Below are positions 770 through 26,705 of a stretch of 64,000 bases of DNA, in pieces. The stretch comes from Calothrix sp. PCC 6303 (lineage in GTDB: Bacteria > Cyanobacteriota > Cyanobacteriia > Cyanobacteriales > Nostocaceae). How positions within the stretch are numbered: the first letter of the stretch is position 1; every line of letters begins with the position of its first letter. A program made the translations under genes and the position numbers. Location of the stretch: contig NC_019751.1 of assembly GCF_000317435.1 (NCBI RefSeq), positions 3,348,001 through 3,412,000 on the forward strand. The letters are read 5' to 3'. The notes beneath the pieces are model-generated. The model worked only from the letters and a program-made list of their open reading frames with translations. It did not search any database and was not told where the DNA came from.

Positions 770-828
770 CTAATAACCCAATGGCTTTGTTGGGTTCGAC
801 TTTGCTCACCCAACATACCCTTTGGAAG

Positions 829-856
829 ACACAGACGCAATGTATTGCGTCTCTAC
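829..856. repeat. Short palindromic interspersed repeat
   Basis: AGACGCAATGTATTGCGTCT (837-856) forms an almost perfect inverted repeat in the 114-base gap between two RTX genes. Similar palindromes (GAGACGTAGC...GCTACGTCTC) sit in the centre of the 103-bp elements at 34393 and 57062. It may also act as a transcription barrier. Confidence 0.5.
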
Positions 857-883
857 ATTTTCAAACCAATTAAATTTTTTTAG

Positions 884-2398: not shown

Positions 2399-2703
2399 TT
2401 TTAAGCAATTTTAGGGATTTACAGCAGTTTTCAACTATTTGAACCACATCAACCGCAGGGGTTTAGCAATGCTAAACCCCTACAGCCTGGTCTATTTACC
2501 TGAAAATAGCTGTAATCTCAAGTCCGGTTAAATTAACACACAAACGTTCCCTATTCCCTCGACCGAAGGTCGGTAATCAACCGGAAGCACCTTGGATTGA
2601 TATCCATCCTTGACAGGTTAATAGCTTGACAAAATAATTTTGTTGTTAACTTGTTCAGGATAAGTGATATTACTTATCTGATATAGCACAACATCACATC
2701 AAT
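2399..2703. other. Intergenic region with palindromic element
   Basis: No gene is visible. It contains a MITE-like palindromic element (2421-2513), a cyanobacterial filler segment and the presumed promoter region of the next RTX gene. A sequence GATAAGTGATATTACTTATC near 2659 is an inverted repeat just before the coding start and could be an operator. Confidence 0.5.
2421..2513. repeat. MITE-like element, copy 1 (ACAGC ends)
   Basis: The ends ACAGCAGTTTTCA and (reverse complement of the right end) ACAGCTATTTTCA are imperfect inverted repeats. The centre GGGGTTTAGC-AAT-GCTAAACCCC is a strong hairpin. A longer element with the same ends follows the next RTX gene (5061-5389), so both lie directly after RTX stop codons and may double as transcription terminators. 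Confidence 0.5.
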
Positions 2704-8901: not shown

Positions 8902-11577
8902 ATGACTACAATTTCTAATTTAAACAATGGAATTTTCACTGTTGATGCTATAGGTAAAGTTAGCGTTGATTATCTCTATGATGGAGGGTTGAACAAGGGA
9001 GAACTAGCGATCTTTAGCCTTGAAGGTATGGAAAATATGGCGGTGGGTTCCGCAGAATTTATTCGTGAAGCCACTAAACGTGCTCTCAGCAATTCTCAAC
9101 AGGGTTATATAGCGGTACGGGATGAAAGCGATCGCGCTCGTTTCAGCGACCTGAATAATCAAATGTCCTGGGAAAAAGATTTTAACGGCGGTATTTACAA
9201 GAGTCTCCAGACATTTGAGATGAAGGCAGGAAGCAAATTTGCGATGATGTTAGTCACCGATACTACGGTAGCTAAGATTTCTCAAAGTACCTCCATTAGT
9301 ACAGACAGAGTTCTATTTTCTTTTGGTTCAGTAGATCCAATCACCGGAAAAGTTGCACCCCAAATCACAGATATTACTGGTAAAGGAAATACCTTCGGTT
9401 GGGAAGATATTAATACCTTAAAACCAACCAATAATGATTTCAACGATATGGTTGTTCAGGTGTCTGGTGCAACAGCGATCGCACCTGCTCTCAAAGATTC
9501 TGTTAACTCTAACCGAAATTGGTTAAATACCCAAGTTGGGCAGGAATTATCACAATATGCTAACCGTTCTCGGTTTGAATCGGGTACATTTATTGTCGAT
9601 GGTACTGGTCAAGTTCAATTTGACTATCTCTATGATGGCGGTTGGTATCAAGGAGAGTTAGCCGTCTTTAGCCTCAAAGGGATGCAAAATTACAAACCAG
9701 GTTCTGCAGAGTTTACACGAGAAGCCACAGCTCGCGCTTTAAGTAACTCGAAACAGGGTCACATTCTGATTAGCGATCGCACGGAAGGATCGCGCTTTAA
9801 CGGTAATGTGAGTTGGGAACCTAACTTTAACGCTGGTGAGTATAAGGGAATTAAGTCTTTCCAGATGGATGCTGGGGATGAGGTAGCATTTATGCTAGTA
9901 CAAAATACTACCTTTGATGAGATTTATCGCCAACCCTACGCTACTGCTCAAGCAGGTAAACAAGTTATTTTCTCTACCGATAAAAAGCAGCTAGTTGCAG
10001 TAGATAAAAATGGCACTCTAGCATTTGAAGATGTCGGTATTAGCTCTGGTAAGGCAGATAAAGATTTCAATGATTTGGTTTTCCAAGCCAAAGGACTCAA
10101 CGGTAACAACATCCCTGAGATGAACGCTGAAATTAATTCCCAACGGGATTGGCGAACTAGCTCTACTGGACAAGACTTGCTCAAATATGCAAACCGCTCT
10201 ACATATAGTGAGGGAGTGTTTGAAGTTGGTGAAACTGGTAAGGTAACTTTTGACTTTCTTTTTGATGGCGGTTGGTATAAAGGAGAGTTTGCCGTCTTCA
10301 GTCTCAAGGGAATGGAGAATTATAAACCTGGTTCGGAAGCTTTTATCAAAGAAGCCACGACACGCGCTCTCAGCAATTCTAAATTAGGTTATGTCTTGGC
10401 GAATGACCCGACTGAAGCGGCACGGTTTAGTGCAAAACTGTCTTGGGAACCTGATTTTAATTCTGATGGTGCAAAATATTTAGGAGTTAAAACCTTTAAC
10501 ATGGATGCAGGTGATAAATTTGCCTTCATGCTCGTCCCCAATACCACTGTTAAAGAGATTAACTCATTTAAGGGCATAAGTAGCGCCAGCTCTATGGTGC
10601 AATATGGAAAGGTACCTCTATTCTCCATTCCCGAAGCGAATCCTAGGATGGGTCGTGGACAAATGGTAAGTGTAGATGGTAGCGGAACTTTTGCTTTTGA
10701 AGATATTCCTACAGGTTTGTCTACTTCCGACCGCGATTACAACGATTTCGTTTTCCAAATCAAAGGTGCTACAGGAATCACTCAGTCAATAGATGATTTC
10801 TCTAACTCCGATCGCAATTGGCGTGCTACAGAAGTAGGAAAAGAATTACTCAAATATTCAAATCGGGCTGTTTTTGATGAAGGTGTCTTTCAAGTCGATT
10901 CAACAGGTCAAGTAAAAATCGACCTACTCTACGATGGTGGTGGTCATCACACCGATGAAATTGGCATTTTTAGCCTCAAAGGTATGGATATATATGAAGC
11001 TGGCTCAGATGCTTTCATCAGAGAAGCTATTCGCCGCGCCAGTAGTAATTCTACAGATGGTTATGTTGTAGTCAAAGATGCTGAAGAGGGTGCGCTTTTC
11101 AGTGACAATAGTGGCATTCTAGACTGGGAAATAGACTTTAATGATGGAGCATATCAAGGGAAGAAAACTTATCAGATGAAGGAGGGAGATACTTTTGGTT
11201 TTGTTCTCGCTTCTAATAAAACTTTTAATGATGTTTTAACTGGACAAAGTTTGAAAAATAATAACAGACCTTTCTTCTCTATGTCGGCGGTTAATTTAAA
11301 CCATGATGTACAAGTGGGAGATGTACTTACAGGAACTAAAGGAACAATTATTGGTTTTGAAGATCTTTCTCTTAATGGAGGTTCTAATCGAGACTACAAC
11401 GATTTTGTGATTAGCGTTGAAGGAGCTAAGAGTATTGGCATCACCAACGTCAAAGATATCATGGTTAACTATCATAACTGGGTGGATACACTAATAGGAA
11501 ATGATATTGTTAACTACTTTAATAATGGAGCTACTTTGACAAATACTTTTTTCTCAAATAATACTAATCTAGGGTAA
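8902..11577 (+). CDS. Protein of four tandem DUF4114 modules
   Basis: The 891-residue product is four copies of one module of roughly 215 residues, starting near residues 1, 223, 434 and 656. Each copy has the strand-turn motif (D)YLYDGG, then EL(A/G)(I/V)FSLxGM, a helix xFIREATxRALSNS, a middle strand ending in DAG or KAG before FAxML, and closes with FEDxxxxxxxxDFNDxVFQ, the acidic calcium-site-like signature of DUF4114. A linker NSxRNWRxTxxGxELxKYANR joins the copies. DUF4114 is common in secreted or surface proteins and often sits beside RTX or PEP-CTERM signals, but no signal peptide, RTX block or anchor is visible here. The C-terminus ends in an Asn/Thr/Phe-rich tail that could be a secretion signal. 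A structural, calcium-binding surface role is inference. Confidence 0.8.
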   Translation: MTTISNLNNGIFTVDAIGKVSVDYLYDGGLNKGELAIFSLEGMENMAVGSAEFIREATKRALSNSQQGYIAVRDESDRARFSDLNNQMSWEKDFNGGIYKSLQTFEMKAGSKFAMMLVTDTTVAKISQSTSISTDRVLFSFGSVDPITGKVAPQITDITGKGNTFGWEDINTLKPTNNDFNDMVVQVSGATAIAPALKDSVNSNRNWLNTQVGQELSQYANRSRFESGTFIVDGTGQVQFDYLYDGGWYQGELAVFSLKGMQNYKPGSAEFTREATARALSNSKQGHILISDRTEGSRFNGNVSWEPNFNAGEYKGIKSFQMDAGDEVAFMLVQNTTFDEIYRQPYATAQAGKQVIFSTDKKQLVAVDKNGTLAFEDVGISSGKADKDFNDLVFQAKGLNGNNIPEMNAEINSQRDWRTSSTGQDLLKYANRSTYSEGVFEVGETGKVTFDFLFDGGWYKGEFAVFSLKGMENYKPGSEAFIKEATTRALSNSKLGYVLANDPTEAARFSAKLSWEPDFNSDGAKYLGVKTFNMDAGDKFAFMLVPNTTVKEINSFKGISSASSMVQYGKVPLFSIPEANPRMGRGQMVSVDGSGTFAFEDIPTGLSTSDRDYNDFVFQIKGATGITQSIDDFSNSDRNWRATEVGKELLKYSNRAVFDEGVFQVDSTGQVKIDLLYDGGGHHTDEIGIFSLKGMDIYEAGSDAFIREAIRRASSNSTDGYVVVKDAEEGALFSDNSGILDWEIDFNDGAYQGKKTYQMKEGDTFGFVLASNKTFNDVLTGQSLKNNNRPFFSMSAVNLNHDVQVGDVLTGTKGTIIGFEDLSLNGGSNRDYNDFVISVEGAKSIGITNVKDIMVNYHNWVDTLIGNDIVNYFNNGATLTNTFFSNNTNLG

Positions 11578-13434: not shown

Positions 13435-14847
13435 TCAGGAAAGCCACTTGGATAATTTATCTATCCAGGGTTTACGAATCCAGATCAAGCACATACCAAG
13501 AGTAGAAAATACAGAACCCATTGCAGCTCCAGCCAGCACTAAGCCTTTCTTGGGAGTTGTCGGTTCAGTTGGTAAACTAGGCTCTACAGCCATCTGTATC
13601 AAGGGGTAAGCTGAAAAAATATCTCCTTGTCCTAAATCTAATTTGGTGAGGGTAGAGGCAAAGGTTGCTTCGGCTATTTGTGCGTCGCGCTTCAAGTTGT
13701 CCAGGCTAGATTCTCGTTGAGAGAGGGTATCTAAGCGCTTCTCTAACTGATTAATTTCTACATCTAGTGCTTTTGCCTGAGCTTTTAGTCCTTGTGCCTC
13801 TGAGTTGTAAGATACCAAACTCTGGAATAATGCATCCCGGCTTGACCCATTTAAAGCCAGAGCTAAACGATTAAGTTTAAATATAGTTATTGGTTTACCT
13901 AATATATACTCACTGCGTTGCAGTAGAGCTGCTAGAGTTGCTTCCTGTCGTTTGCTTTCATTCACCACATTGGGATGATTAGAGGTCAAATCAGCCAGTA
14001 AAAGTTCCCGCTTTGATGCAGCTTGACTATAATCTTTGAGATTTTGTTGAAAGACTTGATCTGCATGGAGAAAAAAAGCATCGGCAGCTTCCTGGGGAGA
14101 TAGTCCGAGAACTCTGACAAGCTCTTGTATACGTTTGCTTGTCAGTTCTTCTTGGGCTTTAGTTTCTGCTAGCTGTCGGCGTAACTGCTCAATGTTGGAA
14201 GATAAATTACCTACTTGTTCAGGAAAACTCAGACCATAACGCATTTTATAATTTGATAGCTGTTTCTGAGCCTCCTGTAGCTTTTGCTGGGTGGTAAGGA
14301 AGATTTTCTCTGTAGGTTCCCGACGCTGAGTGATTTCTCCGCTTCGTAAGGTATTAGTTTCGTTCACCATAGCCTGATACAAAGCTAGAGATTTCTTGTG
14401 TGCATCTTCTGGGCTTTTACCAGTGAGTTCAAACTGCATGATGGTGGTGTTATCTATGAGTTTGATGCGAGGTTTACCAAATTGATCTTGCGGAATTTTG
14501 GCGATCGCAGAAGCCGCTTTGATCACTGCATCACTAGTAAAAATAAATTCATAATTAGACCGAGCATCATAAGTAGAACTACCGAGAGAAGAAACGCTGG
14601 AAGATGTTGCCTGACCAATTCCTGGTAAATTAACATTAACGCCAGAACTAGCACCACTTAAAAGTAGAGCAAACTCACTGGTATAGCTTGGTTTGGTGAC
14701 TTTTAAATACTGGACTGATGATCCCCAAATCAAAGTATTGCTTAACCCTGCAAGAATAATATAGCGAAGCCAACGACCAGTGATTAAATTTTTGACCTCT
14801 AATATTTTGACAATCAACACCTGTTGCGAACCCTTAACAAATCTCAT
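13435..14847 (-). CDS. Wzz/GumC-type polysaccharide chain-length determinant
   Basis: The 470-residue protein has a membrane segment near residues 28-44 (YIILAGLSNTLIWG), a long periplasmic region with predicted coiled coils (LTTQQKLQEAQKQL; NIEQLRRQLAETKAQEE; EINQLEKRLDTLSQRESSLD), and a second membrane segment near the end preceded by the proline-rich PSLPTEPTTPKKG, the classical Wzz signature. There is no fused tyrosine kinase domain. Such proteins set chain length and, in Wzx/Wzy systems, contact the polymerase and outer-membrane exporter. It is the first gene of the minus-strand pair with the Wzy-like gene, and its start faces the plus-strand cluster across a 741-base gap. Confidence 0.85.
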   Translation of the reverse strand: MRFVKGSQQVLIVKILEVKNLITGRWLRYIILAGLSNTLIWGSSVQYLKVTKPSYTSEFALLLSGASSGVNVNLPGIGQATSSSVSSLGSSTYDARSNYEFIFTSDAVIKAASAIAKIPQDQFGKPRIKLIDNTTIMQFELTGKSPEDAHKKSLALYQAMVNETNTLRSGEITQRREPTEKIFLTTQQKLQEAQKQLSNYKMRYGLSFPEQVGNLSSNIEQLRRQLAETKAQEELTSKRIQELVRVLGLSPQEAADAFFLHADQVFQQNLKDYSQAASKRELLLADLTSNHPNVVNESKRQEATLAALLQRSEYILGKPITIFKLNRLALALNGSSRDALFQSLVSYNSEAQGLKAQAKALDVEINQLEKRLDTLSQRESSLDNLKRDAQIAEATFASTLTKLDLGQGDIFSAYPLIQMAVEPSLPTEPTTPKKGLVLAGAAMGSVFSTLGMCLIWIRKPWIDKLSKWLS

Positions 14848-15588
14848 GGAATATAAATACCAAATAGGAGCGTTTGAATCGAGTGTCAGAATAGAAATAA
14901 TATTGATTAATAAAAATCTTATTAATTTGAAACATCAGAATTGTTTGAACTGGTTAGATTGAAAAAAATTATGTATATATTTTACTTTTTGTAAAAACGG
15001 CAATCAATAATGGCAAGCATTCTATTTAGATACATAGGCAAAAATAAAGCTTTATTAATACATATACAAGACAAACAAAACATTCTTTTTGAACACATAC
15101 AAAATATACATTATGTTCATGGAAGCATGTTTTTTATGATCACAACATTATATCCAATTTAAATAAATGTCCAAAAAATCTTAATATCAAGATGAATCAA
15201 ATACACAGACAAGCTTGAATTTTAGGCATTTTTAGTAAATTATCAGACTTACGGCTGTCGTCTTTTCAGATTATCTTGGAGGTGAAATTGGGTGTAAAGC
15301 TCGACATTCATACTAATGATAGATTATAAACAAAATAGTAATAGAGAATTTATATTTAGATTGTGAATATACACCAAGGTTCAAAAGCTGATGCAGCTAT
15401 CTTGTTCCGGAAAGACTCATTCAAAAATCAAACCGGATTTCTAGGAATTTATTTTTTGATTTGAATACTTATCAAATATATTGACAATTTCAAAAAAATA
15501 TAAATTTATTATTGATTGAGCAAAATTTGATAGTTTTGTGCATTTTTTCATTGATTGTCATGATTTTTAATCATTTTGTTAATCAAAT
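14848..15588. other. Divergent promoter region of the polysaccharide locus
   Basis: This AT-rich gap separates the minus-strand wzz/wzy pair from the plus-strand glycosyltransferase operon, so it should hold promoters in both directions. No gene is seen. The last 60 bases contain overlapping TTGATT/AATCA repeats (for example TTGATTGTCATGATTTTTAA) that could bind a regulator; no known consensus can be assigned. Confidence 0.4.
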
Positions 15589-16650
15589 ATGGGACATACA
15601 ATAGGGTTGCTAAATACTTATTCAACTTTAAATATTGGTGATGCTGCAATTTATACCGCTCTGACTGCCTTAGTATCTGAGGCTAAAGTAGTAGCTCAAT
15701 TTCAAGATTTAGAACCGAATTATATTCCTGGGTTGCAAATTTTGCCACAGATAGGAACTTGTAATGCCTATATCAGTGTAGGTGGCGATATTTTCAATAA
15801 TGCCCGCGAAGGTTTGATCACGAAAGCTTTTATTAAAAATCTTTTGCAATTGCAGCGATCGCCTCGGCATACTTTTGTGTTTGGACAGTCAATTCCGCGC
15901 TCGTGTCACGGTTTGAGTTTCCAGGCTTTGGCATTTTTTTGGCGGCGTTTAGCTGCTGTTTGTGTTCGGGATGTCCAAAGCCATCAACGTTTAATCCAAG
16001 CTGGAGTAAAGGCAATTTTGTCTTTTGATGTCGCCTTTAGTCTCTCTGTCACTGAAGAGGCGAAGATCAGGGCAAAACAGGTTTTACAAGCTCTAGATAT
16101 TTCCCCAGACTCAGCTGCATTGATTTCTCTGCGTGCTTTTGACTCGATGTATAGCCATGATAATCAGCAGTTTCAAACTCAACTGGTGACTCTTAGTCGT
16201 AACTTGTACAAACAGGGATATCAACCTGTATTGCTGATTCAATCTCAAGCCTACGGTGCTGATAATGACTTAGCAGTGGCAGAAGAAATCGCTCGCCAAG
16301 TTCCAGAACTCAAGATTTTTAATCCCTTTGTCGTCACTCATGAATTGCCCAATTGGCAACTAGTAATGGGAGCATTGGCAATTTGTCGTTTGATTGTTGC
16401 CATTCGCTATCACACAGCAGTTCTAGCTTTAGCTAGTGGTAAAGTTCCTTTTAATTTGTACTACTCAAATAAGGGCAAAGATTTAACCCAACGGTTGGGA
16501 ATCCCTGGGTGCAGCTTGGAAGAGTTCAACCCACATACAGATATAAATGCGATCGCTGCCACCGCTGATGCAACCTTTGACGATGCGGCGATTCGTCAAC
16601 AGGTTAAACAAGACTTCCAAACATGCTATAGCCAAGTAGTACCAAAATGA
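15589..16650 (+). CDS. Polysaccharide pyruvyltransferase family protein
   Basis: The 353-residue product fits the polysaccharide pyruvyl transferase family (PF04230): an N-terminal NxGDxAI-type motif (STLNIGDAAIYTAL), a middle segment YISVGGDIF, FGQSIPRS, and the C-terminal RYHTAVLALASGKVPFNLYY (20 residues), where R-x-H-T/S is the conserved catalytic region. Members add pyruvate ketals to sugars, or act as related sugar-modifying enzymes, in exopolysaccharide assembly. It is the first gene of the plus-strand operon; its stop codon overlaps the start of the next gene by four bases (ATGA). The family call is firm; the exact acceptor is unknown. Confidence 0.85.
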   Translation: MGHTIGLLNTYSTLNIGDAAIYTALTALVSEAKVVAQFQDLEPNYIPGLQILPQIGTCNAYISVGGDIFNNAREGLITKAFIKNLLQLQRSPRHTFVFGQSIPRSCHGLSFQALAFFWRRLAAVCVRDVQSHQRLIQAGVKAILSFDVAFSLSVTEEAKIRAKQVLQALDISPDSAALISLRAFDSMYSHDNQQFQTQLVTLSRNLYKQGYQPVLLIQSQAYGADNDLAVAEEIARQVPELKIFNPFVVTHELPNWQLVMGALAICRLIVAIRYHTAVLALASGKVPFNLYYSNKGKDLTQRLGIPGCSLEEFNPHTDINAIAATADATFDDAAIRQQVKQDFQTCYSQVVPK

Positions 16651-17645
16651 AAGCCAAAGTTTGTCATCTGGTGGGTGGTCAGGGTATGGGCTGGACTGGT
16701 GGCATCAAAGCCACTTTAAAAAGTTTAGAAATGTCCCATCTATCACAAAAATTTGAGTTTGCGATCGCACCTTTGTCAGATGCATCATTTATTGTCAGAC
16801 AACAGCGACCTGATGTAATTGTGGTTCATGCAGCTTCCTCTTGGCGGGGGTTGTTGTCCCTCTGGAAGCTGAAGCGTTCATCCAAGTTAATTGTCAATGA
16901 ACACCATTATTCAGCCAGCTTTGAAGCCTTTAATGTTCCCTCAGTGGCTCGGTTTCATGGGATGCTCAAACTGACTTATGGAATGTGCGATCGCGTCATT
17001 GCTGTTTCTGTAGGACAACAGCAATGGATGCAGAAAAATAAATTAGTTGCGCCTGATAGGATTGCCCTGATTCAGTCTTCGCGGATGGTTGATCAATTCT
17101 TAGCTGTTTCCCCCAAACCCAGAGTTGCAAATCAACCATTTGTGTTAGGAGCCTATGGACGCTTTTGTTGGCAAAAAGGGTTTGATATTCTGATTGAAGC
17201 AGTCAAACAACTTCCTGATTCCCAAATTACATTACAACTGGGTGGTAGTGGAGCAGACGAAGCCAAGTTAAAAGAATTAGCTGCTACCTGCCCTGATATT
17301 GAATTTGTCGGTCGCATTGATGATGTACCTGCTTTTTTGAGTCATTGTGATGCTGTGGTTATTCCCTCCCGTTGGGAACCTTGGGGTAATGTGTGTTTAG
17401 AAGCTCGGGCGGCAGCTAAACCGATTATTGCGTCTGCGGTGGATGGTTTGAGTGAACAGATGCAAGGCTGTGGACGACTGATCCCAGTAGAAAACCCAGT
17501 AGCACTAGCTAAAGCAATTCAAGAATTAGCCGCTCTACCATCTGTCCAATTAGCACAGATGGGACAAGAAGGAAAAGCCTCAGCAATCACCGCTTGGGAG
17601 ACTTATTTATCTAATTGGCAAGGGTTGCTAGAGGAAGTAATATGA
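16647..17645 (+). CDS. GT4 family glycosyltransferase
   Basis: The 332-residue product has the GT-B fold pattern of family 4. The C-terminal half contains LGAYGRFCWQKGFDILIEA, the usual start of the donor-binding domain, then IPSRWEPWGNVCLEARAAAKP with the E-x7-E motif that binds the nucleotide sugar. The glycine-rich loop near the N-terminus reads GGQGMGWTGGIKATL. It lacks membrane helices, so it acts on the cytoplasmic face. Overlaps of four bases with the gene before and the gene after (start at 17642) show tight translational coupling within the polysaccharide operon. Donor and acceptor sugars cannot be read from the sequence. Confidence 0.9.
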   Translation: MKAKVCHLVGGQGMGWTGGIKATLKSLEMSHLSQKFEFAIAPLSDASFIVRQQRPDVIVVHAASSWRGLLSLWKLKRSSKLIVNEHHYSASFEAFNVPSVARFHGMLKLTYGMCDRVIAVSVGQQQWMQKNKLVAPDRIALIQSSRMVDQFLAVSPKPRVANQPFVLGAYGRFCWQKGFDILIEAVKQLPDSQITLQLGGSGADEAKLKELAATCPDIEFVGRIDDVPAFLSHCDAVVIPSRWEPWGNVCLEARAAAKPIIASAVDGLSEQMQGCGRLIPVENPVALAKAIQELAALPSVQLAQMGQEGKASAITAWETYLSNWQGLLEEVI

Positions 17646-18919
17646 AAGCGATCGCTCAGGCTCTAGCTGCTTTCAAAAAAGACCGATTTGTCCGCAACAT
17701 TGGCTGGATGGGGTCTTCCGAATTAGTGATTCGGGTATTCCGCCTGGTGACTACCGTGATTCTCGCCCGGTTGCTCAGTCCTGAAGACTATGGACTCGCT
17801 GCCATTGTCCTCATGACTCACGACTTTATTCGGGTATTTACCCGCAATGGTATTGCAGACAAAATTATCCAGGCGGATGCATCCGAGGTTGAAGAGTTGT
17901 GCCGTACAGCTTATGGATTGAATTGGTTAATTGCTTTGGTTCTTTTCACCCTGCAATGTTTAGTATCCTTAGCGATCGCCCAATTCTACGGTAATTTCCA
18001 TCTCATTGTTCCTATCTGTTTAATTGCCATCACCTACCTGATCTATCCTCTAGCGATGGTGCAAACAGCCCTGATTCGTAGAGAAAATCGCTTGAATATT
18101 TTGGCTTTGATCAGTTTAGTTCAAATTTCCACAGATAACGTTCTGACAGCGATTTTAGCCTTATCTGGCATGGGAATGTGGGCGATCGTTTTACCGAAAT
18201 TTTTGGTGGCTCCCATCTGGATTATTCTCACGTTTAAATATCATCCTTGGCGGATGACTAAATCTTTCTCCTTTAATAAATGGCAACAAATTACCTCCTT
18301 TGCCAGCCGCATTTTGGGAGTCGAGTTACTCACCATCTTTCGGGAAAACGTCGATTATCTCTTAATTGGTCGGTTTGTCGGTGTGCAAGCTTTAGGGGTT
18401 TATTACTTCGCCTTTAATGCTGGTTTAGGAATTAGCTTGAGCGTCATTAATGCCATTCGCGTATCCCTATTTTCGGATCTGTGCAATCTGAACTCTCAAC
18501 CTAGCTTATTTGCTCAACGCTATCTGCAAAGCCTACGCAAAATAGCCATGATGATTGTGCCTCTGGTGGTGCTGCAATCCAGTTTAGCTCCCTTTTATGT
18601 TCCCTTAATATTTGGGCAGAAATGGGTTGAGCGTGGAGCCGTACCCATCTTAATTTTGATTTGTATTTCAGCCCTATCTCGCCCCTTTGCTGATGCAGCC
18701 TCTTTGATGTTCCGAGCCTTTGGTCAGACGCAAATTGAATTGCGCTGGAATATCATATTCACTATTTTTCTAGCCATTGCTATTTGGGTAGGAACCCAGT
18801 GGGGTATCTTAGGAGCTGCGGTTGCTGTCATGGCAACTCACCTGATTCTACAGCCCCTATATACCCTTTGGGCTACAAGGCAAACCCTACCAAAATTTTT
18901 ACAGGAGGCTAAAGGATGA
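17642..18919 (+). CDS. Wzx-type oligosaccharide flippase
   Basis: The start is placed at ATG 17642 because it overlaps the preceding stop as ATGA and is preceded by AGAGGAAG at the right distance; an upstream in-frame TTG at 17615 is less likely. The product has about twelve hydrophobic segments and the PST/MATE-like opening RNIGWMGSSELVIRVFRLVTT, here split as RNIGWMGSSELV and IRVFRLVTT, followed by ILARLLSPEDYGLAAIV, the hallmark of lipopolysaccharide/teichuronic acid exporters of the RfbX/Wzx group. It would flip undecaprenyl-linked repeat units to the outer side for polymerisation by the Wzy-like protein. The next gene also starts with an ATGA overlap. Confidence 0.88.
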   Translation: MKAIAQALAAFKKDRFVRNIGWMGSSELVIRVFRLVTTVILARLLSPEDYGLAAIVLMTHDFIRVFTRNGIADKIIQADASEVEELCRTAYGLNWLIALVLFTLQCLVSLAIAQFYGNFHLIVPICLIAITYLIYPLAMVQTALIRRENRLNILALISLVQISTDNVLTAILALSGMGMWAIVLPKFLVAPIWIILTFKYHPWRMTKSFSFNKWQQITSFASRILGVELLTIFRENVDYLLIGRFVGVQALGVYYFAFNAGLGISLSVINAIRVSLFSDLCNLNSQPSLFAQRYLQSLRKIAMMIVPLVVLQSSLAPFYVPLIFGQKWVERGAVPILILICISALSRPFADAASLMFRAFGQTQIELRWNIIFTIFLAIAIWVGTQWGILGAAVAVMATHLILQPLYTLWATRQTLPKFLQEAKG

Positions 18920-19902
18920 TCACAAATAGCCCAAGGATATCAGTAGTGATACCCGCCTACAATGCTGCACAATTTTTACCAGCAGCAATTACTTCTGTGC
19001 AACACCAGACTTTTTCCGATTGGGAACTACTAATCATTAATGATGGTTCTACGGATGACACAGTTGAGGTTGTCAGACAATATGAACAAAGAGATACCCG
19101 TATTCATCTAATTAACCAAGTGAATCAGGGCGTATCTGCTGCTCGTAACCAAGGAGTGGAAAACAGCCAAGGTCAAATCATCGCCTTTCTGGATGCTGAT
19201 GATCAATGGCTACCTAAAAAATTATGCATACATCTGGAACATTTACAGTCCAATCCTGATTTAGGGGTTAGCTTTGCCCAAGTAGAAATACTGAATCCGT
19301 CGGGTGAACCAAGTGGACAGGTTTCTAGTGGTCGTTTAACTCATTTAAAATCCGAATATTTCCTTTCAGAAAACCCCACCACTACTACTTCTAATTGGGT
19401 TATCCGCAAAGAAGTATTTAGTCAAGTAGGAGGCTTTTGCCATGATATGAGCTACTCCGAGGATATGGAATGGCTACTTAGGGTAATTTGCACTAGTGAT
19501 TGGCAAATTGTAGGTATTAACCAAGTGTTGACTCAATATCGTACCAGTTCCAGTGGGCTGTCTGCTCAGTTGTATCAGATGGAAGCAGGCTGGAATCAAC
19601 TTGTGCAGAAGGCGAAAATTTATGCACCCCAATTGGTTGAGCAGCATTTTGCTTTAGCTCAGGCTATACATTTACGTTATTTAGCTCGGCGGGCTTTTCG
19701 TCTGAAATTACCTGCAAAAGTGGGAGTTGATTTTATCAGCCGTGCTTTGCATTCTGATTGGCGATTGTTTTTCTATCAAACTCGGCGGACTTTATTAACT
19801 TTGGTTGCGGTGTTTGGGATGTTGATACTTGAGAAGGTTTTTCTCATCCAGAGACATTCCCCTGTTGAGGAAAGTATCCATCGTGTAGAAAGTCATAGTT
19901 GA
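18916..19902 (+). CDS. GT2 family glycosyltransferase (first of two paralogues)
   Basis: The 328-residue product starts with the GT-A motif ISVVIPAYNAAQFL, then WELLIINDGSTDDT and GQIIAFLDADDQWLP, where DADD is the metal/nucleotide-sugar site. The acceptor side has the SEDMEWLLRV segment, in which E-D is the usual catalytic base region. The C-terminal hydrophobic stretch (LLTLVAVFGMLILEKVF) may hold it to the membrane. It closely parallels the gene at 20251, including a shared block with LRYLARRA, so the two arose by duplication. Four-base overlap with the flippase gene places it in the same operon. Confidence 0.9.
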   Translation: MITNSPRISVVIPAYNAAQFLPAAITSVQHQTFSDWELLIINDGSTDDTVEVVRQYEQRDTRIHLINQVNQGVSAARNQGVENSQGQIIAFLDADDQWLPKKLCIHLEHLQSNPDLGVSFAQVEILNPSGEPSGQVSSGRLTHLKSEYFLSENPTTTTSNWVIRKEVFSQVGGFCHDMSYSEDMEWLLRVICTSDWQIVGINQVLTQYRTSSSGLSAQLYQMEAGWNQLVQKAKIYAPQLVEQHFALAQAIHLRYLARRAFRLKLPAKVGVDFISRALHSDWRLFFYQTRRTLLTLVAVFGMLILEKVFLIQRHSPVEESIHRVESHS

Positions 19903-20250
19903 GTATGTGTAAAAGATCCCCTGTACTCGACCAACCCAAGATTGCCGGGTAGGGCAAGCAGGGGGGCAGGGGGAGAAGAGAGGCAGGGGGGAAAGAGGTG
20001 TTTTCTTCATCCAAGGCGGGCAACCCAAGTCCCTGCCAGCAAGCAAACTTACCTTGCCAGACTACTAGTTTTATACTTCCATCTGTTAGCGATTAGCTAA
20101 AACCTTACTAATCAAAGCTAATAGCGATTTTAAAAGTCCAATTTCTAACCGTTTTCAGTATACCTAAAAGGAAACCTCTGTTTCTCGTTCCCTTCTTATT
20201 GAATTACAAATACGTAGCTTGCTTCTCGCCTTTGGCGAGTATTAGGAATT
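19903..20250. other. Intergenic gap inside the polysaccharide operon
   Basis: This is the only long gap (348 bases) in the plus-strand series. It holds a G-rich low-complexity run (GCAGGGGGGCAGGGGGAGAA, within 19958-20000) of the kind scattered through cyanobacterial spacers, and a short inverted repeat GCTTCTCGCCTTTGGCGAG before the next start. A minus-strand ORF across it (19795-20046) is not believed. Confidence 0.45.
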
Positions 20251-21306
20251 ATGAAATTATCTGTAATTATTCCAGTTTACAATTCGGAATCTTCGGTGGC
20301 GGCGACGCTACGGTCTGTTCTTGCACAAACCTATGATGACTTTGAAGTGATCATTGTTGATGATGGTTGTACAGATAACAGCATTGATATCTGTAAGCAG
20401 TTTCATGACTCCCGCATCAAGATTATCCAGCAACAAAATCGAGGATTGGCAGGAGCGAGAAACACTGGTATTCGTCACGCGCAGGGGGAATATTTAGCTT
20501 TTGTTGATAGTGATGACCTGTGGTTAGCGGAGAAATTAGCCAAACATATTCAGCATTTTGAGCGATCGCCTGAAGTTGGGGTGAGTTTTTCCCGCTCTAG
20601 CTTTATTGATGACCAAGGTGAGCCTTTGGGAATTTATCAGATGCCTAAATTAACAGATATTACGCCAGAATATTTATTCTGTCGCAATCCTATTAGTAAT
20701 GGGTCATCGGTGGTGATTCGTCGAATTGTTTTGGAAGCTATTAAGTTCCAAGAGAATCTTTATGGCGAAATTGAAGATTTTTATTTTGACGATCGCTTTC
20801 GTCAATCTGAAGATATTGAGTGTTGGCTGCGAATTGCGCTGCAAACTAATTGGAAAATAGAAGGTATACCCGAAGCTCTCACCCTCTATCGGGTGAATAT
20901 GGGTGGTTTGTCAGCTAATGTTCTCAAACAATATGAATCTTGGGAGCAAATTCTCGTCAAAACCCAGGTCTATAATCCTCAGTTTATCGACCTATGGGGA
21001 AACAAAGCTAGAGCTTATCAACTACGATACTTAGCCCGAAGAGCAACCAGACAGCGAGCGCCAAAAATTGCCGTTAACCTCTTGCACAAAGCTGTAGGAA
21101 TATATTGGCGGATTTTTGTAGAAGAACCTCAACGTACATTTATTTCTTTTGGTGCTGCTTATCTTTTATGGATTCTACCGCAATTTTTGTATCAGAATTT
21201 AGAAAAATTAATGATGCAAATTACTGGAGCAAATCAACAGCGACGTATTTTGCATGAGCAGAAATCAGAATTCAAGCCGATGAATTCTGAAGTATTTAAT
21301 TCATAA
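20251..21306 (+). CDS. GT2 family glycosyltransferase (second paralogue)
   Basis: The 351-residue product shows KLSVIIPVYNSESSV, FEVIIVDDGCTDNS, and GEYLAFVDSDDLWLAEKL with the DSDD metal-binding site, then SEDIECWLRIA as the acceptor-side catalytic segment. It is similar along its length to the 18916 enzyme. The C-terminal AAYLLWILPQFLYQ may be a membrane-contacting helix. An AGGA ribosome binding site precedes ATG 20251. It continues the polysaccharide operon with the Alg14-like gene 19 bases downstream. It probably adds one of the later sugars of the repeat unit (inference). Confidence 0.9.
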   Translation: MKLSVIIPVYNSESSVAATLRSVLAQTYDDFEVIIVDDGCTDNSIDICKQFHDSRIKIIQQQNRGLAGARNTGIRHAQGEYLAFVDSDDLWLAEKLAKHIQHFERSPEVGVSFSRSSFIDDQGEPLGIYQMPKLTDITPEYLFCRNPISNGSSVVIRRIVLEAIKFQENLYGEIEDFYFDDRFRQSEDIECWLRIALQTNWKIEGIPEALTLYRVNMGGLSANVLKQYESWEQILVKTQVYNPQFIDLWGNKARAYQLRYLARRATRQRAPKIAVNLLHKAVGIYWRIFVEEPQRTFISFGAAYLLWILPQFLYQNLEKLMMQITGANQQRRILHEQKSEFKPMNSEVFNS

Positions 21307-21325: not shown

Positions 21326-21781
21326 ATGAAAGTTTTACTAGTTTGTTCTTCGGGTGGGCATTTTAAAGGTCTTCAGCAATTGCGTCCTTTTTGGGAACAG
21401 CATGAACGAGTTTGGGTGACTTTTAAAACTGCAACCACAGAGGCTTCTTTGGCAGAAGAAACAGTGTTTTGGGCTTATAGTCCTACCAATCGGAATTTGC
21501 CCAATTTGTTTAAAAATCTGCTGCTGGCTTTTCAGGTGATCAGGGAAACTCAACCACAACTGATCATCTCAACAGGAGCAGGTGTTGCTGTTCCCTTTCT
21601 GATTATTGGCAAATTATTTGGTAGCAAAACAGCATTTATTGAATCTGTAACTCGGATTCATACTTTGAGTTTATCTGCCAAATTAGTTTTACCTTTTTTG
21701 AGCGTCCTATATGTGCAATGGGCACAACTGCAAACCCGTTATCCTCAAGCTGAACTTATAATTCCTCAGGAAAGTGTATGA
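21326..21781 (+). CDS. Alg14/PssD-like glycosyltransferase membrane subunit
   Basis: The 151-residue product begins KVLLVCSSGGHFKGLQQL, the glycine-rich start of Alg14-type proteins, and has STGAGVAVPFLIIGKLFG and the ESVTRIHTLSLSAKL segment typical of PssD/CpsF/EpsF-like subunits. These proteins recruit a catalytic Alg13-like partner to the membrane to form one bipartite GT28 enzyme. The partner gene follows with a four-base overlap. Ribosome binding site GAAGGGAAAA lies just upstream of the ATG. Confidence 0.85.
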   Translation: MKVLLVCSSGGHFKGLQQLRPFWEQHERVWVTFKTATTEASLAEETVFWAYSPTNRNLPNLFKNLLLAFQVIRETQPQLIISTGAGVAVPFLIIGKLFGSKTAFIESVTRIHTLSLSAKLVLPFLSVLYVQWAQLQTRYPQAELIIPQESV

Positions 21782-22269
21782 TTTTAGTCACAGTCGGTAC
21801 AGAACAATATCCTTTTAATCGCCTCATGTCTTGGATTGAGGTCTTGCTACAAAGTGAACTGATTCAAGAAGAAGTTGTAGTGCAGTATGGAACTTGCACG
21901 GTTTTACCTGCTGGTGCTAAGGTTTATCGTCTCATCAAAGAAGACAAATTTCAGGAGTTGATTAAGCAAGCGCGAATAGTGATTGCTCATTGTGGGGAAG
22001 GAACTTTACTCTTGTTAGATTCTTTAGATAAGCCTTACATTTTAGCGGCTCGTAGTCAGAGATTTGGTGAACATGTTGATGAGCATCAAGTCGAACTAGC
22101 TCTAGCACTATCACAACTGAATGTACCCATTGCTTGGTGTCCAGGAGATTTAGTGCGATTTATCGAGACTCCAAAAAAAGTCTCCATTTCTGATGTGTCT
22201 ACTGCTAGTGCGATCGCACTATGCAATAGTCTAGAATCTCGCTTTGGTGAATCCTTAGGAGTTATGTAA
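21778..22269 (+). CDS. Alg13/PssE-like catalytic glycosyltransferase subunit, 3' end altered by an insertion sequence
   Basis: The 163-residue product matches the C-terminal GT28 domain: MILVTVGTEQYPFNRLM at the start, IVIAHCGEGTLLLLDSLDKP in the donor-binding region, and the closing RFGEHVDEHQVELA. Together with the Alg14-like protein it should transfer one sugar to the lipid-linked intermediate. The last four codons (GVM and the preceding junction) and the stop codon come from the left end of the insertion sequence at 22258. Joining the flanks through the TTA target duplicate restores an older ending, PELSVGI and a stop at 23635-23637, only 5 bases before the next gene. The catalytic core is untouched, so activity is probably kept. 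Confidence 0.85.
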   Translation: MILVTVGTEQYPFNRLMSWIEVLLQSELIQEEVVVQYGTCTVLPAGAKVYRLIKEDKFQELIKQARIVIAHCGEGTLLLLDSLDKPYILAARSQRFGEHVDEHQVELALALSQLNVPIAWCPGDLVRFIETPKKVSISDVSTASAIALCNSLESRFGESLGVM

Positions 22270-23610
22270 AAATAAGTTGCGTAACTTCAAGATAGCAAAC
22301 AAGTGGTTGCCAATAAATTTTATGCTGGATTATGTCAACAGTAAGACAGTATAAAAATCATGCGCAAACAGGGTGCAGTAATCAATATTAGAGAAAAATA
22401 CAGAGAAATAAGCCCTTACTTAAATGAACGAACACGTAGGATTTGGGCAGGAACAGAGGCTTTGGGGTTAGGATATGGGGGAATTACAGCAGTATCAGAG
22501 GCAACAGGTTTAAGTCAAAATACCATTCGCTCAGGCATAGAAGAATTACTTTTGTCGAGTGAAAATCCGACGCAAACGGCAAGGATACGCAGTCGTGGTG
22601 GTGGACGTAAAAAATTGACGATGGCAGATAAAACTTTAAAGCAAGATTTAGACTCTTTGGTAGAACCAACAAGCCGTGGAGACCCAGAATCACCCCTGCG
22701 TTGGAGTTGTAAGAGTTTAGCAAAACTAGCTTCAGAGTTAAAAAACATGGGACATAAGGTATGCAGCAAAACTGTTTCAACCTTACTTAAAAGTATGGGC
22801 TATAGCTTACAAGGAAATCGCAAAACTCAGGAAGGCAAACATAACCCTGACAGAGACCAGCAATTTGTTCACATTAATAGAACTGTACGACAGTTCCAAA
22901 ATCAGAAACATCCAGTAATTTCAGTGGACACAAAGAAGAAAGAATTAATCGGTAACTATAAAAATTCTGGCGTGGAGTGGGAACCTTCTTCGTCACCCAC
23001 TCAAGTCAAAGTTCACGACTTTGTTGACCCGGAGTTAGGCAAAGCAATACCTTACGGCGTATACGATTTACAACATAATCAAGCTTGGGTAAGTGTAGGT
23101 ATTGACCACGACACAGCATCGTTTGCAGTCGAGACAATACGGAATTGGTGGTTCAATATGGGAAAACCATTATATCCAGATAGTCAGCATCTTCTGATTA
23201 CAGCCGATTGCGGAGGTAGTAATAGCTACCGTAGCCGCCTCTGGAAACTGAAATTACAAGAGTTTGCGGAGCAAACAGGATTAACTGTTCACGTTTGCCA
23301 TTTTCCACCTGGAACTAGCAAATGGAATCGAATCGAGCATCGATTATTCTGCCATATTTCTCAAAACTGGCGAGGACGACCCTTGGATAGCTTAATGGTG
23401 ATTGTAAGCTTGATTGGTAATACAAGTACAAAACATGGCTTAACAGTTCACGCACAAGTAGACCCAAATCAGTATCAAATAGGTATTAAAGTATCCGATG
23501 AAGACTTCAATGCTATTGCCATCACAAAAGATACTTTTCATGGTGAATGGAACTATCAAATTAGCCCTAGAAATTCAACGTAGTTTATCAATTTATTTTT
23601 ACACGACTCC
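22258..23610 (+). mobile_element. Insertion sequence of ISAzo13 type, complete
   Basis: Imperfect terminal inverted repeats lie at 22258-22285 and 23583-23610; their best-matching core is TGTAAAAATAA, and both outer ends read GGAGT. A direct TTA flanks each side (22255-22257 and 23611-23613), the 3-bp target duplication known for the ISAzo13 family. The element is 1353 bp and carries one transposase gene in the same direction as the surrounding operon. The open transposase and good end repeats suggest recent, possibly active, insertion. Confidence 0.85.
22360..23583 (+). CDS. ISAzo13 family transposase
   Basis: The 407-residue protein opens with INIREKYREISPYLNERTRR and WAGTEALGLGYGGI, the helix-turn-helix region of ISAzo13 transposases (LSQNTIRSGIEEL). 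The catalytic part includes VISVDTKKKELIG (first Asp), LLITADCGGSN (second Asp) and HFPPGTSKWNRIEHRLF (the Glu), giving a DDE triad. No frameshift or internal stop is present. Its stop codon region overlaps the first base of the right inverted repeat. Confidence 0.92.
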   Translation: MRKQGAVINIREKYREISPYLNERTRRIWAGTEALGLGYGGITAVSEATGLSQNTIRSGIEELLLSSENPTQTARIRSRGGGRKKLTMADKTLKQDLDSLVEPTSRGDPESPLRWSCKSLAKLASELKNMGHKVCSKTVSTLLKSMGYSLQGNRKTQEGKHNPDRDQQFVHINRTVRQFQNQKHPVISVDTKKKELIGNYKNSGVEWEPSSSPTQVKVHDFVDPELGKAIPYGVYDLQHNQAWVSVGIDHDTASFAVETIRNWWFNMGKPLYPDSQHLLITADCGGSNSYRSRLWKLKLQEFAEQTGLTVHVCHFPPGTSKWNRIEHRLFCHISQNWRGRPLDSLMVIVSLIGNTSTKHGLTVHAQVDPNQYQIGIKVSDEDFNAIAITKDTFHGEWNYQISPRNST

Positions 23611-23642
23611 TTACCAGAACTTTCAGTAGGTATATAAAAATT

Positions 23643-24641
23643 ATGACTTCTCATTCCAAGACAATAATATCCCTAGATACCACTCGTAAAGGTAGTGTTC
23701 TATTAGTACATTTGCCTCCTAGATTAACTGTGATCGAGGCTGTTTCTTTTCGGAAGTATTTTCAAACTTTAGTAGAAGACAACACGATCACAAAAATTAT
23801 CTTGGATTTTGGCAAAACCACAATTATCGATAGTAGTGGTGTTGGGTCATTAATTAGTAACCACAAATCTGCACAGACGAAAAATATCAAATTAATCTTT
23901 TGGAGTGTTACTTCTCAAGTTAAATTAGCTTTTTCTCTGGTTGGTTTGGAGAAAATATTTAACATTGAACCCAACACCGAGGCTATTATCCCCACTGCAA
24001 ACCGCAAAACTGAACAGCGTCCACCCTTAACTCATCCGTCAGTGCGATCGCCGATGAAACGTGCCATTGATATTGTGGGTGCCATCATTGGGTTAATGAT
24101 AACTGGAGTGTTATTTGTGCCGATTGCGATCGCTATTAAACTTGATAGTCCAGGTTCCATACTTTTTAGCCAAATTCGTTGCGGTTGGATGGGACAAAGG
24201 TTTCGCATCTGGAAGTTTCGTTCGATGGTGACTGATGCTGAAGCCCTTAAAGCTACTATTACAAACCAAGCATCTGGCGCTTTTTTCAAAAGTGATTGTG
24301 ATCCACGCATTACCCGTATTGGTCACTTTCTTCGCAAGACCAGTTTAGATGAATTTCCGCAATTTTGGAATGTTCTGATGGGAGATATGAGTTTAGTTGG
24401 TACTCGACCAGCAACCCCAGATGAGCTAGAACAGTATGAAATTCGTAATTGGCAAAGATTTGATGTCAGACCTGGAATTACTGGTGAGTGGCAGACTAAT
24501 GGTCGCTCAAAAATTCGTAACTTTGAGGATGTTATCGAACTCGATTTGCGATACCAGAAAAACTGGAGTTTAGTCTATGATCTCAAGCTCATATTCAAAA
24601 CTATTATGGTTGTGTTTAATAAGGATTCAGGGGCAATGTAA
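23643..24641 (+). CDS. STAS domain fused to polyprenyl-phosphate sugar-phosphate transferase
   Basis: Residues about 8-115 are a STAS (anti-sigma factor antagonist) domain: [13 protein letters not shown], then [20 protein letters not shown], where the Ser at 64 or 65 in DSSG is the usual phosphorylation site. From residue about 138 follows a monotopic sugar transferase of the WcaJ/PglC/ExoY type (PF02397): [15 protein letters not shown] membrane helix, [26 protein letters not shown] with the catalytic Asp236-Glu237 dyad, SLVGTRPA and [10 protein letters not shown]. Such enzymes load the first sugar phosphate onto undecaprenyl phosphate. The fusion suggests that phosphorylation of the STAS part controls initiation of the glycan. 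The stop codon touches the ATG of an RsbW-like kinase gene. Domain calls are firm; the regulatory idea is inference. Confidence 0.9.
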
Positions 24642-25112
24642 ATGTCAGCGGAAACAGATTTATTAATCCGTAACTCTAGCTTACAAGTTGCCAGTGATTT
24701 AGATGCGATGATAACAGTTGTGGAATGGTTCGATCAATTGAACTGCTCATTTTTACCCGAACAATTGTGGGTAGAAGCACAAACTGCTTTGATTGAGGGC
24801 TTTACAAATGTGGTTCGCCATGCTCACAGCCACCTTAGTCCTCAAACTCCTGTCGATCTAGAAGTACAAATTTGCCATGAATATTTCCAGATTCGTATTT
24901 GGGATCAAGGTGATCCTTTTGATTTAGAAGCAGCTTTAGAAGATCTCAGCCAAGAAACAGGAGATCAGGCATTTAATCCTTTAAATCGTGATAAACATTG
25001 GGGCTGTATCTTTTTCCTTAAGCTCCAAAGAGACTATCACTGGACTATTAGTTATACTTGTGGAATAGGAAATAAAAACTGCTTATTGCTAAGGAAAAAT
25101 TTAGTTTTTTAA
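24642..25112 (+). CDS. RsbW/SpoIIAB-like serine kinase (GHKL ATPase)
   Basis: The 156-residue protein has the GHKL ATP-binding pattern of anti-sigma kinases: N box ALIEGFTNVVRHAH with the conserved Glu-Asn pair, and G1 box IRIWDQGDPFD. The usual glycine-rich G2 box is degenerate here (KHWGCIFFLKLQRD), which may change nucleotide handling. Its start codon directly follows the STAS-transferase stop with no spacer, so the two are made together, and the natural substrate of such a kinase is exactly a STAS serine. No sigma factor gene is near. A role in phosphorylating the fused STAS domain is a strong inference. Confidence 0.82.
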   Translation: MSAETDLLIRNSSLQVASDLDAMITVVEWFDQLNCSFLPEQLWVEAQTALIEGFTNVVRHAHSHLSPQTPVDLEVQICHEYFQIRIWDQGDPFDLEAALEDLSQETGDQAFNPLNRDKHWGCIFFLKLQRDYHWTISYTCGIGNKNCLLLRKNLVF

Positions 25113-25517
25113 GGAGGATACTTGTAAATTCGGTTGAGGCTTTGCGTAACTTGCTTATCGCAGAGTAAAATCAAATTTTCTAAGTTTTCTAGAGGTTTCT
25201 TTCCACCAGGGTAAGCTATAACCCAACCTATGCAAAATCAGGCTTTTAGCTCTAACTATAGCTTACTACTTTCTGATAAGCTACTGTATGTCTACTGCGG
25301 ATAATTGCCGTATTAGTCTATAAAACTTCCTTTATCAGAAATTATAATAAGTAGATGGTTAGAAATAAACAGAAATATGTAACAGAATACAAACTTAGCT
25401 TAAACCCTTAACACTACTCACTACTCAGTCCCCACAACGATAATTTTTCCTACCTACCTATCTACTTAGTTATTCAATTAAAATTGCTTCTAAATTACTA
25501 CAGTAATATTTATAAAA
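25113..25517. other. Intergenic region before the PP2C gene
   Basis: No gene is visible in these 405 bases. An AAGGAGG sequence at 25112-25118 precedes only TTG-TAA and cannot serve a real frame. The region probably holds the promoter of the receiver-PP2C gene, so that gene may be regulated apart from the operon. Confidence 0.4.
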
Positions 25518-26705
25518 ATGGCTACGATAACTGATTCTAAAATCAAAATCTTAGTGATTGATGATGACCGAGTTCTTCAACTCATTTTAAAAAAGACCCT
25601 TCAAGATCAAGGATATGAAGTTATTGTTGCTTCAAATGGTGAACAGGGATTAGAGCAAGCTAAACATCTACGTCCAGCTATGATTATTTGTGATTGGCAA
25701 ATGGGAGAAATGGATGGCTTAGAAGTCTGTCGCCAAATTAAATCTCAACCACTGCTATCAACAACGTTTTTTATCCTGCTGACTTCACGTAAAGCTGTGG
25801 AAGATCGGGTTGAAGGTTTAGACACGGGTGCAGACGATTTCTTGAGTAAACCCATTGAGATCAATGAATTAAAAGCACGAGTAAGATCTGGACTGAGACT
25901 ATATCACACTAATCAAAAACTTCAACAATTAGCTGAGGATCTACATATCCAAAAACAGCTTTTAGAGACAGAGTTAAATGAAGCTGCTGATTACGTTAAA
26001 TCTATTCTTCCGGAATCAATGTCGGGGTTAATCACAATTAATTCCAAGTTTTTACCTTGTAATCAATTGGGTGGTGATTGCTTTGATTACTACTGGCTAG
26101 ATGAAAATCACCTAGTTATATACCTCCTTGATGTCTCTGGACATGGATTAGCCGCAGCTCTTCCTTCAATTTCGGTGCATAATTTATTGCGATCGCATTC
26201 TCTTCCCAAAGCCAGTCTTTATGAACCATCGGAAGTTCTCCAGAACTTGAATGAGATATTTCAAATGGAGAAGCAAAATGACCAATACTTTACGATCTGG
26301 TATGGAGTTTTTGACCGAAGCTCTTCTCAATTAACCTATGCTAGTGCTGGTCATCCTCCGGCTTTACTACTTTCTCAAACTGCTCACTCAAGTTTAGAGA
26401 TCAAACACTTAGTTACCCCAGGTCAACCAATTGGAGCGTTTGCAGAAGCCGAATATCGCAATGCTATATGTGAGATTGAAGATCCGAGTAAACTCTATGT
26501 TTTCAGCGATGGAGTTTATGAAGTTGAACAGTCTGATGGTAGCTTATGGGATTTAAACGGTTTCATTAATTTACTAGTTGCATATAATCAACCATTTAAA
26601 TTGGGCTTAGACCATATTTTAGAAGCAATAGAAACCTCAACAGGTAGTAAAGCTTTTATAGATGACTGTTCATTAATAGAAATCAACTTTAATCATAGTT
26701 GTTGA
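25518..26705 (+). CDS. Response regulator with PP2C/SpoIIE-type serine phosphatase (RsbU-like)
   Basis: Residues about 8-128 form a receiver domain: acidic pocket Asp15-Asp17, phosphoacceptor Asp59 in IICDWQMGEMDG, switch Thr/Ser in LLTSRKA, and Lys in SKPIEI. A coiled linker (residues about 130-160) leads to a SpoIIE/RsbU PP2C phosphatase with its metal-binding aspartates in LGGDCFDYYW, LLDVSGHGLAAAL and FSDGVYEVEQ, plus YASAGHPPALLLS. All key residues are present. Such enzymes dephosphorylate STAS proteins. Lying 405 bases after the STAS-transferase and kinase genes, on the same strand, it is the likely opposing phosphatase, switched on or off by a histidine kinase through Asp59 (inference). 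Confidence 0.92.
   Translation: MATITDSKIKILVIDDDRVLQLILKKTLQDQGYEVIVASNGEQGLEQAKHLRPAMIICDWQMGEMDGLEVCRQIKSQPLLSTTFFILLTSRKAVEDRVEGLDTGADDFLSKPIEINELKARVRSGLRLYHTNQKLQQLAEDLHIQKQLLETELNEAADYVKSILPESMSGLITINSKFLPCNQLGGDCFDYYWLDENHLVIYLLDVSGHGLAAALPSISVHNLLRSHSLPKASLYEPSEVLQNLNEIFQMEKQNDQYFTIWYGVFDRSSSQLTYASAGHPPALLLSQTAHSSLEIKHLVTPGQPIGAFAEAEYRNAICEIEDPSKLYVFSDGVYEVEQSDGSLWDLNGFINLLVAYNQPFKLGLDHILEAIETSTGSKAFIDDCSLIEINFNHSC

Follow-up and report, generated by a model that had tools for sequence, protein, structure and literature searches.

The stretch of DNA considered here (the window) comprises 64,000 nucleotides of Calothrix sp. PCC 6303 (contig NC_019751.1, positions 3,348,001 to 3,412,000 of the forward strand). 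At positions 23643–26705 of the window it carries three genes on the + strand: a 332-amino-acid fusion of a STAS domain with a phosphoglycosyl transferase (23643–24641), a predicted RsbW/SpoIIAB-type GHKL serine kinase of 156 amino acids (24642–25112), and a predicted response-regulator receiver joined to a SpoIIE/RsbU-type PP2C phosphatase, 395 amino acids in all (25518–26705). The gene set was first described from its letters alone (hereafter the sequence-only reading) and was interpreted as a partner-switching module that controls the first committed step of exopolysaccharide synthesis; that interpretation as a whole is partly supported by the comparative analysis reported here.

The fusion, kinase and phosphatase genes

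The fusion is encoded by a single unbroken reading frame that runs across both domains. Residues 12–113 (23676–23981) match the Pfam STAS family PF01740 with 55.5 bits (curated cut-off 22.6), and residues 139–325 (24057–24617) match the Bac_transf family PF02397 with 219.3 bits (cut-off 27); the score against TIGR03025 is 277.9 bits, under that model's cut-off of 295.55. Within the STAS domain, a phospho-acceptor serine is present in the D-S-[ST]-G motif as D63-S64-S65-G66, and its codon (23832–23834) specifies Ser64, which we take by position to correspond to Ser58, the phosphorylated serine of SpoIIAA. Both residues of the transferase's catalytic dyad, D236-E237 (24348–24353), are intact. 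The frame, the domain matches and the motifs thus confirm what the sequence-only reading had stated of a DSSG-bearing STAS domain joined to a sugar transferase with its Asp-Glu dyad. A sequence search with the fusion's STAS domain returned SpoIIAA (1th8, 1tid), in agreement with the predicted fold.

The predicted structure is that of a read-through chain, STAS–transferase–kinase, in which the TAA between the two genes was read as glycine; the alignment behind it (A1) has two misaligned kinase rows (L045 and L070), and the model has a mean predicted local distance difference test score (pLDDT) of 82 and a predicted template modelling score (pTM) of 0.58. Residues 8–109 of the model match RsbV of the RsbV-RsbW complex (6m36_B, Z 15.5, 1.7 Å over 100), residues 124–326 match WbaP (8t53, Z 19.1, 4.1 Å over 163), residues 131–328 match PglC (8e37, Z 17.9), and residues 339–489, within the kinase, match SpoIIAB (1l0o, Z 12.1, 3.5 Å over 135). 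A long membrane-type helix is predicted at fusion residues 137–168.

As the sequence-only reading had noted, the kinase frame starts on the base right after the TAA of the fusion. It matches HATPase_c_2 (PF13581) with 48.4 bits (cut-off 27.4), and a profile of its family matches RsbW (6m36, E 2e-10). No promoter was found 5′ of the fusion or of the kinase on the + strand in a consensus scan, which is little informative for cyanobacteria. The downstream gene has the composition that had been claimed for it, with a receiver (Response_reg, 102 bits) that retains Asp59 and a SpoIIE domain (PF07228, 137 bits) in which the PP2C metal-binding motifs are present (GGD 185, DVSGHG 205, SDG 330, DD 382). 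Kinase and phosphatase genes are separated by a non-coding gap (25113–25517), and this is the position at which close relatives carry a gene for a stand-alone STAS protein of 109–228 amino acids.

Distribution and linkage of the fusion

Full-length fusions, at 54–78% identity, are found in most genomes of the order and in other cyanobacterial orders of the class. In the genome scan the top 80 loci are all cyanobacterial, no dedicated profile search of other phyla having been made, and neither the small-genome family f41 nor family f47 outside the class has a full-length match among the matches listed. In a FastTree phylogeny built from 140 transferase domains, a single change divides fused from unfused domains with support of 99; judged by this tree, the fusion apparently arose from one event. 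A close relative, Tolypothrix sp. FACHB-123 (L038), has the same fusion with zero spacing to its kinase gene, and identity to it is 77% for the STAS domain, 85% for the transferase and 66% for the kinase. The ratios of non-synonymous to synonymous substitution rates (dN/dS) against this relative are 0.14 (STAS), 0.07 (transferase), 0.37 (kinase) and 0.14 (receiver-PP2C), which indicates purifying selection on all four segments. Given the shared fusion and this selection, neither chance nor a frameshift nor misassembly accounts for the arrangement. A fusion peculiar to this genome through misassembly or recombination, which the sequence-only reading had named as one of the outcomes that would undo its case, is ruled out by the full-length fusions across orders together with the single origin on the tree.

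Ser64 is retained in 95/98 fusions, and the three that have lost it are all Pseudanabaena-type genes without a kinase. Pseudanabaena-type genes (L061–L068, L071, L072, L078, L083, and L092) encode proteins of about 710–730 amino acids, some of them without the STAS serine (DGAG, DTSG); the one that was scanned (L061) has PssE-like, PssD-like, STAS and priming-transferase parts in one chain. At another locus (L168, 11320–13143) a 607-amino-acid chain combines a WecG/TagA/CpsF glycosyltransferase with STAS and PF02397 domains, and a second, ordinary STAS-transferase fusion lies beside it. In both kinds of longer chain, the transferase is tied by fusion to other sugar steps.

Linkage was counted in loci flanked by 5 kb in both directions, for 69 short fusions and 27 unfused transferases. 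A same-strand kinase gene lies directly downstream of the fusion in 35/69 loci as opposed to 0/27 unfused loci (Fisher p=5.6e-7, a value that overstates independence because the loci are related), and kinase adjacency takes 10 changes on the transferase-domain tree. The spacing between fusion and kinase is often 0, as also in three further relatives (L039, L040, and L043), or is an overlap of 4–50 nt, which suggests coupled translation. A PP2C gene is nearby in 15/35 kinase-bearing loci vs. 0/34 kinase-less ones; every PP2C-bearing locus except that of the window also has a stand-alone STAS gene, and 19 loci have the kinase with neither PP2C nor stand-alone STAS nearby. The phosphatase takes two forms, receiver-PP2C in the clade of the window and PAS-PP2C in other families (with GAF too in 2/3 scanned). 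The co-occurrence of fusion, kinase and RsbU-type phosphatase, which the sequence-only reading had proposed as a check, holds for a widespread architecture in about half of its loci for the kinase and, for the phosphatase, in fewer than half of the kinase-bearing ones. All of the 39 fusions that adjoin a kinase have an intact DSS motif. STAS and kinase distances correlate at 0.79, and the partial correlation with transferase distances removed is 0.55, compared with 0.26 between transferase and kinase, by a permutation test that ignores phylogeny. These correlations and the linkage counts support inheritance of the kinase together with the fusion. An unlinked kinase gene at about 2.158 Mb of this genome is up to 48% identical to the kinases linked to STAS-transferases.

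The sequence-only reading had described the three genes visible in the window, and these stand; relatives show that the full set is larger and that parts of it have been lost or moved here. In the nine relatives of the window clade that were read (L038–L043 and L150–L152), the genes for fusion, kinase and stand-alone STAS follow one another in that order, and after them comes, on the other strand, the receiver-PP2C, which lies 6 kb further off in L039. The motif of the stand-alone STAS protein is DSSG, with one DSAG. A large histidine kinase follows the receiver-PP2C in seven of these loci (L038, L040, L041, L043, and L150–L152), five of which carry an H-NOX gene as well, and that of L038 is a hybrid kinase with an HNOBA domain. 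The whole set stands behind an exopolysaccharide cluster. In this genome the receiver-PP2C gene is inverted relative to those of the relatives, and a pair of H-NOX and HNOBA-kinase genes, with identities of 72% and 66% to their L038 counterparts, is found 1.4 Mb away from the module (L217, 10181–13253, about 1.976 Mb), where the H-NOX gene overlaps that of the HNOBA-hybrid histidine kinase and no PP2C gene was found beside them.

Proposed circuit and rival explanations

We consider it fairly probable that the locus encodes a partner-switching module in which the kinase acts on the fused STAS domain and alters the output of the priming transferase. The contact between kinase and STAS domain, its phosphorylation, the signal and the sugar of the module are parts of the scheme that we infer. 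The kinase (24642–25112) would bind the transferase-fused STAS domain and phosphorylate Ser64, and the receiver-PP2C (25518–26705), its receiver phosphorylated by a histidine kinase, would strip the phosphate from Ser64. Binding, phosphorylation or both would change the loading of the first sugar phosphate onto the lipid carrier by the membrane-bound transferase, and production of a Wzx/Wzy-type exopolysaccharide would be set at its committed step. In the fuller form found in relatives, the stand-alone STAS protein would compete for the same kinase, and the H-NOX/hybrid histidine kinase pair would probably drive the phosphatase. By analogy with HmpV and SypA (see below), the dephosphorylated fusion is favoured as the active form. 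That kinase and phosphatase are under purifying selection here, in a genome without the stand-alone STAS gene, suggests that the fused STAS domain is a real target.

Several observations weigh against this scheme, and each is given below with the alternative on which it bears. The kinase is the fastest-evolving of the four segments (dN/dS 0.37), and it is less complete than the sequence-only reading had assumed: the N-box (E52/N56) and G1 (D88/G90) residues are intact and invariant across 20 sequences, and the second glycine of the G2 ATP-lid motif Gly-x-Gly is also invariant among the aligned kinases, but the first is gone. The motif reads HWGC here and HWGC or QWGC in the kinases of the window clade, as opposed to GRGL in most of the family. 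Loss of this glycine leaves kinase activity in the clade uncertain, so that the protein is best called RsbW-like on its residues, and it makes pure sequestration a serious rival: a weak or dead kinase would bind the fused STAS domain without phosphorylating it, and the stand-alone STAS protein, where present, would titrate the kinase away. Such a role would suit the SpoIIAB/RsbW fold that the kinase model retains and the stand-alone STAS gene that adjoins the kinase in all nine relatives; the invariant N-box, G1 and second G2 residues argue for catalysis instead, Ser64 is retained throughout the clade, and a PP2C with intact metal motifs under purifying selection is hard to explain without a phosphate to remove. 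We regard sequestration alone as rather improbable.

A second group of observations concerns the STAS domain. No kinase gene is nearby in 34/69 fusion loci, so that a local circuit does not accompany every fusion, and among these is XssP, the priming enzyme for synechan encoded on pSYSM of Synechocystis 6803, whose mutant loses bloom formation and exopolysaccharide accumulation (PMC8205485). XssP has STAS (37.9 bits) and PF02397 (225 bits) domains in one chain and is 54.6% identical to the fusion over residues 49–331, but its motif is DSAA instead of DSSG; genes for an RsbW-type kinase, a PP2C or a stand-alone STAS protein were not found by profile in 31 kb around it. Its published regulation is transcriptional, through XssS/R/Q, and the main text of neither synechan paper mentions a STAS domain. 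When the xss genes were moved to S. elongatus they supported polymer production (PMC13125312); a local kinase is thus not always needed for the STAS domain to serve. The stand-alone STAS proteins of the relatives, searched across this genome, give a best match of 38% identity, which is a paralogue; the gene is absent, and no remnant of it was found by tblastn in the gap at 25113–25517. In a second alternative, the fused STAS domain would be a structural, oligomerisation or scaffold module, comparable to those of stressosomes, MlaB or SulP, and kinase and phosphatase would act mainly on the stand-alone STAS protein or else on a target encoded elsewhere, for example a sigma factor. Searches with the predicted fold do return SulP, MlaB and stressosome STAS domains, and the motif serine could be retained for structural reasons. 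However, the core linked pair is fusion plus kinase, as the 19 loci with neither PP2C nor stand-alone STAS nearby illustrate; in this genome both kinase and PP2C persist although the stand-alone protein is missing; and none of the neighbouring genes that were read was recognised as encoding a sigma factor. On balance, this second alternative seems unlikely.

The exopolysaccharide output proposed in the sequence-only reading is supported by the setting of the locus as well as by XssP. Upstream lies an exopolysaccharide cluster (13435–21306) recognised by profile matches, with genes for a polysaccharide co-polymerase-like protein (75% identical to its L038 counterpart), a polysaccharide pyruvyl transferase, a GT4-like glycosyltransferase, a Wzx-type flippase and two GT2 glycosyltransferases, followed by a PssD/Cps14F-like and PssE/Cps14G-like glycosyltransferase pair (21326–22269, +). 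The pssE-like gene is separated from the fusion by an ISAzo13-family insertion sequence (22257–23613, +, ends approximate; transposase frame 22360–23583, NF033519). This insertion corresponds to an alignment gap at 22247–23609, is bounded by short inverted ends with what looks like a target duplication of 3 bp (TTA), and has removed the last residues of the pssE-like gene. At the same junction in relatives the element is absent and the two genes overlap or abut. The insertion splits the fusion from the upstream operon and may alter its expression, a further point against a working module in this genome. The locus may even be decaying, the module no longer working here while still working in relatives: to the insertion and the truncated PssE-like C terminus may be added the missing STAS gene, the inverted phosphatase gene and the distant H-NOX/kinase pair. 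Yet all frames are intact, dN/dS is well under 1, and the catalytic motifs are complete save for the G2 glycine, which is missing in the whole clade; we give decay little credence.

A wider relay can be sketched for Nostoc-type cyanobacteria, in which H-NOX would control the hybrid histidine kinase and this would phosphorylate the receiver-PP2C. The phosphatase would in turn dephosphorylate both the free STAS protein and the STAS domain of the transferase, which would compete for one kinase; nitric oxide or oxygen would then set the initiation of exopolysaccharide synthesis at the enzyme, without transcription or cyclic di-GMP. We offer this relay tentatively and hold it to be doubtful as a whole; the candidate signal that it names, in one clade, is a haem-bound gas.

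Elsewhere in the window, an 891-amino-acid protein with four DUF4114 repeats is encoded at 8902–11577 (+), repeat-rich proteins whose repeats are of the glycine/aspartate calcium-binding type are encoded upstream of it at 119–5058, and a 1228-amino-acid TPR-CHAT protein (caspase-like protease fold) is encoded at 57335–61021 (−).

Comparison with known systems

The joining of a STAS domain to a glycosyltransferase is old and widespread, and had been noted before. A review ascribes an N-terminal STAS domain to the glycosyltransferase encoded by all4160 of Anabaena PCC 7120 (PMC8256260), a gene counted among those on which synthesis of the heterocyst envelope polysaccharide depends (PMC8256260, PMC4390870, both citing Wang et al. 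2007); on this description alone, its architecture is the same as that of the fusion. This genome has a second STAS-transferase fusion (L149, 10394–11407), which has no kinase nearby, groups with kinase-less Nostocaceae fusions and may be of the all4160 type. The fusion itself is thus already on record, and a description of the surrounding circuit was not found; nor was literature found that links an RsbW-type kinase, a PP2C or H-NOX to a STAS-transferase, most subscription journals being out of reach.

In its catalytic fold and Asp-Glu dyad, the transferase resembles WbaP/WcaJ and PglC, but WbaP has an N-terminal membrane/regulatory region where the fusion has a STAS domain. The STAS domain, GHKL kinase and PP2C, with their conserved motifs, resemble RsbV/RsbW/RsbU and SpoIIAA/SpoIIAB/SpoIIE of Bacillus; the output of those systems is a sigma factor, whereas in the fusion the STAS domain forms one covalent chain with a sugar transferase of the membrane, no stand-alone STAS gene lies beside the kinase, as it would in a complete Rsb-type switch, and no sigma factor gene was recognised in the part of the locus that was read. 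Known switches do act through separate STAS proteins, as the sequence-only reading had held, but enzymes were already among their outputs: in SiaC-SiaD (of SiaABCD), HsbA-HsbD and BgrV-BgrR, the target of a phospho-regulated STAS or STAS-like protein is an enzyme and not a sigma factor (PMC8457831). Those partners are not fused to each other, and the enzyme in question is a diguanylate cyclase.

Two further switches bear on polysaccharides. HmpU-HmpW-HmpV of Nostoc punctiforme, a partner switch that affects hormogonium motility and polysaccharide and in which the effector of HmpV is undefined (PMC6495340, PMC8256260), likewise consists of a cyanobacterial STAS protein, kinase and phosphatase, but its STAS protein is separate and not fused to a transferase. 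At another place in this genome (L207, 9716–13383), a separate set of STAS protein, RsbW-type kinase and receiver-PP2C resembles an Hmp-type partner switch. In Vibrio fischeri, SypA-SypE forms a STAS switch on biofilm polysaccharide in which unphosphorylated STAS is active (PMC8256260); SypA, too, is a separate protein, and its target is unknown. The module described here would offer a direct model of how a large part of the cyanobacteria could regulate exopolysaccharide synthesis post-translationally at its committed step, and it would point to sugar transferases as targets of other partner switches too. Whereas the effectors of HmpV and SypA are unknown, the STAS domain is here part of the priming enzyme, so that output and switch would be one molecule.

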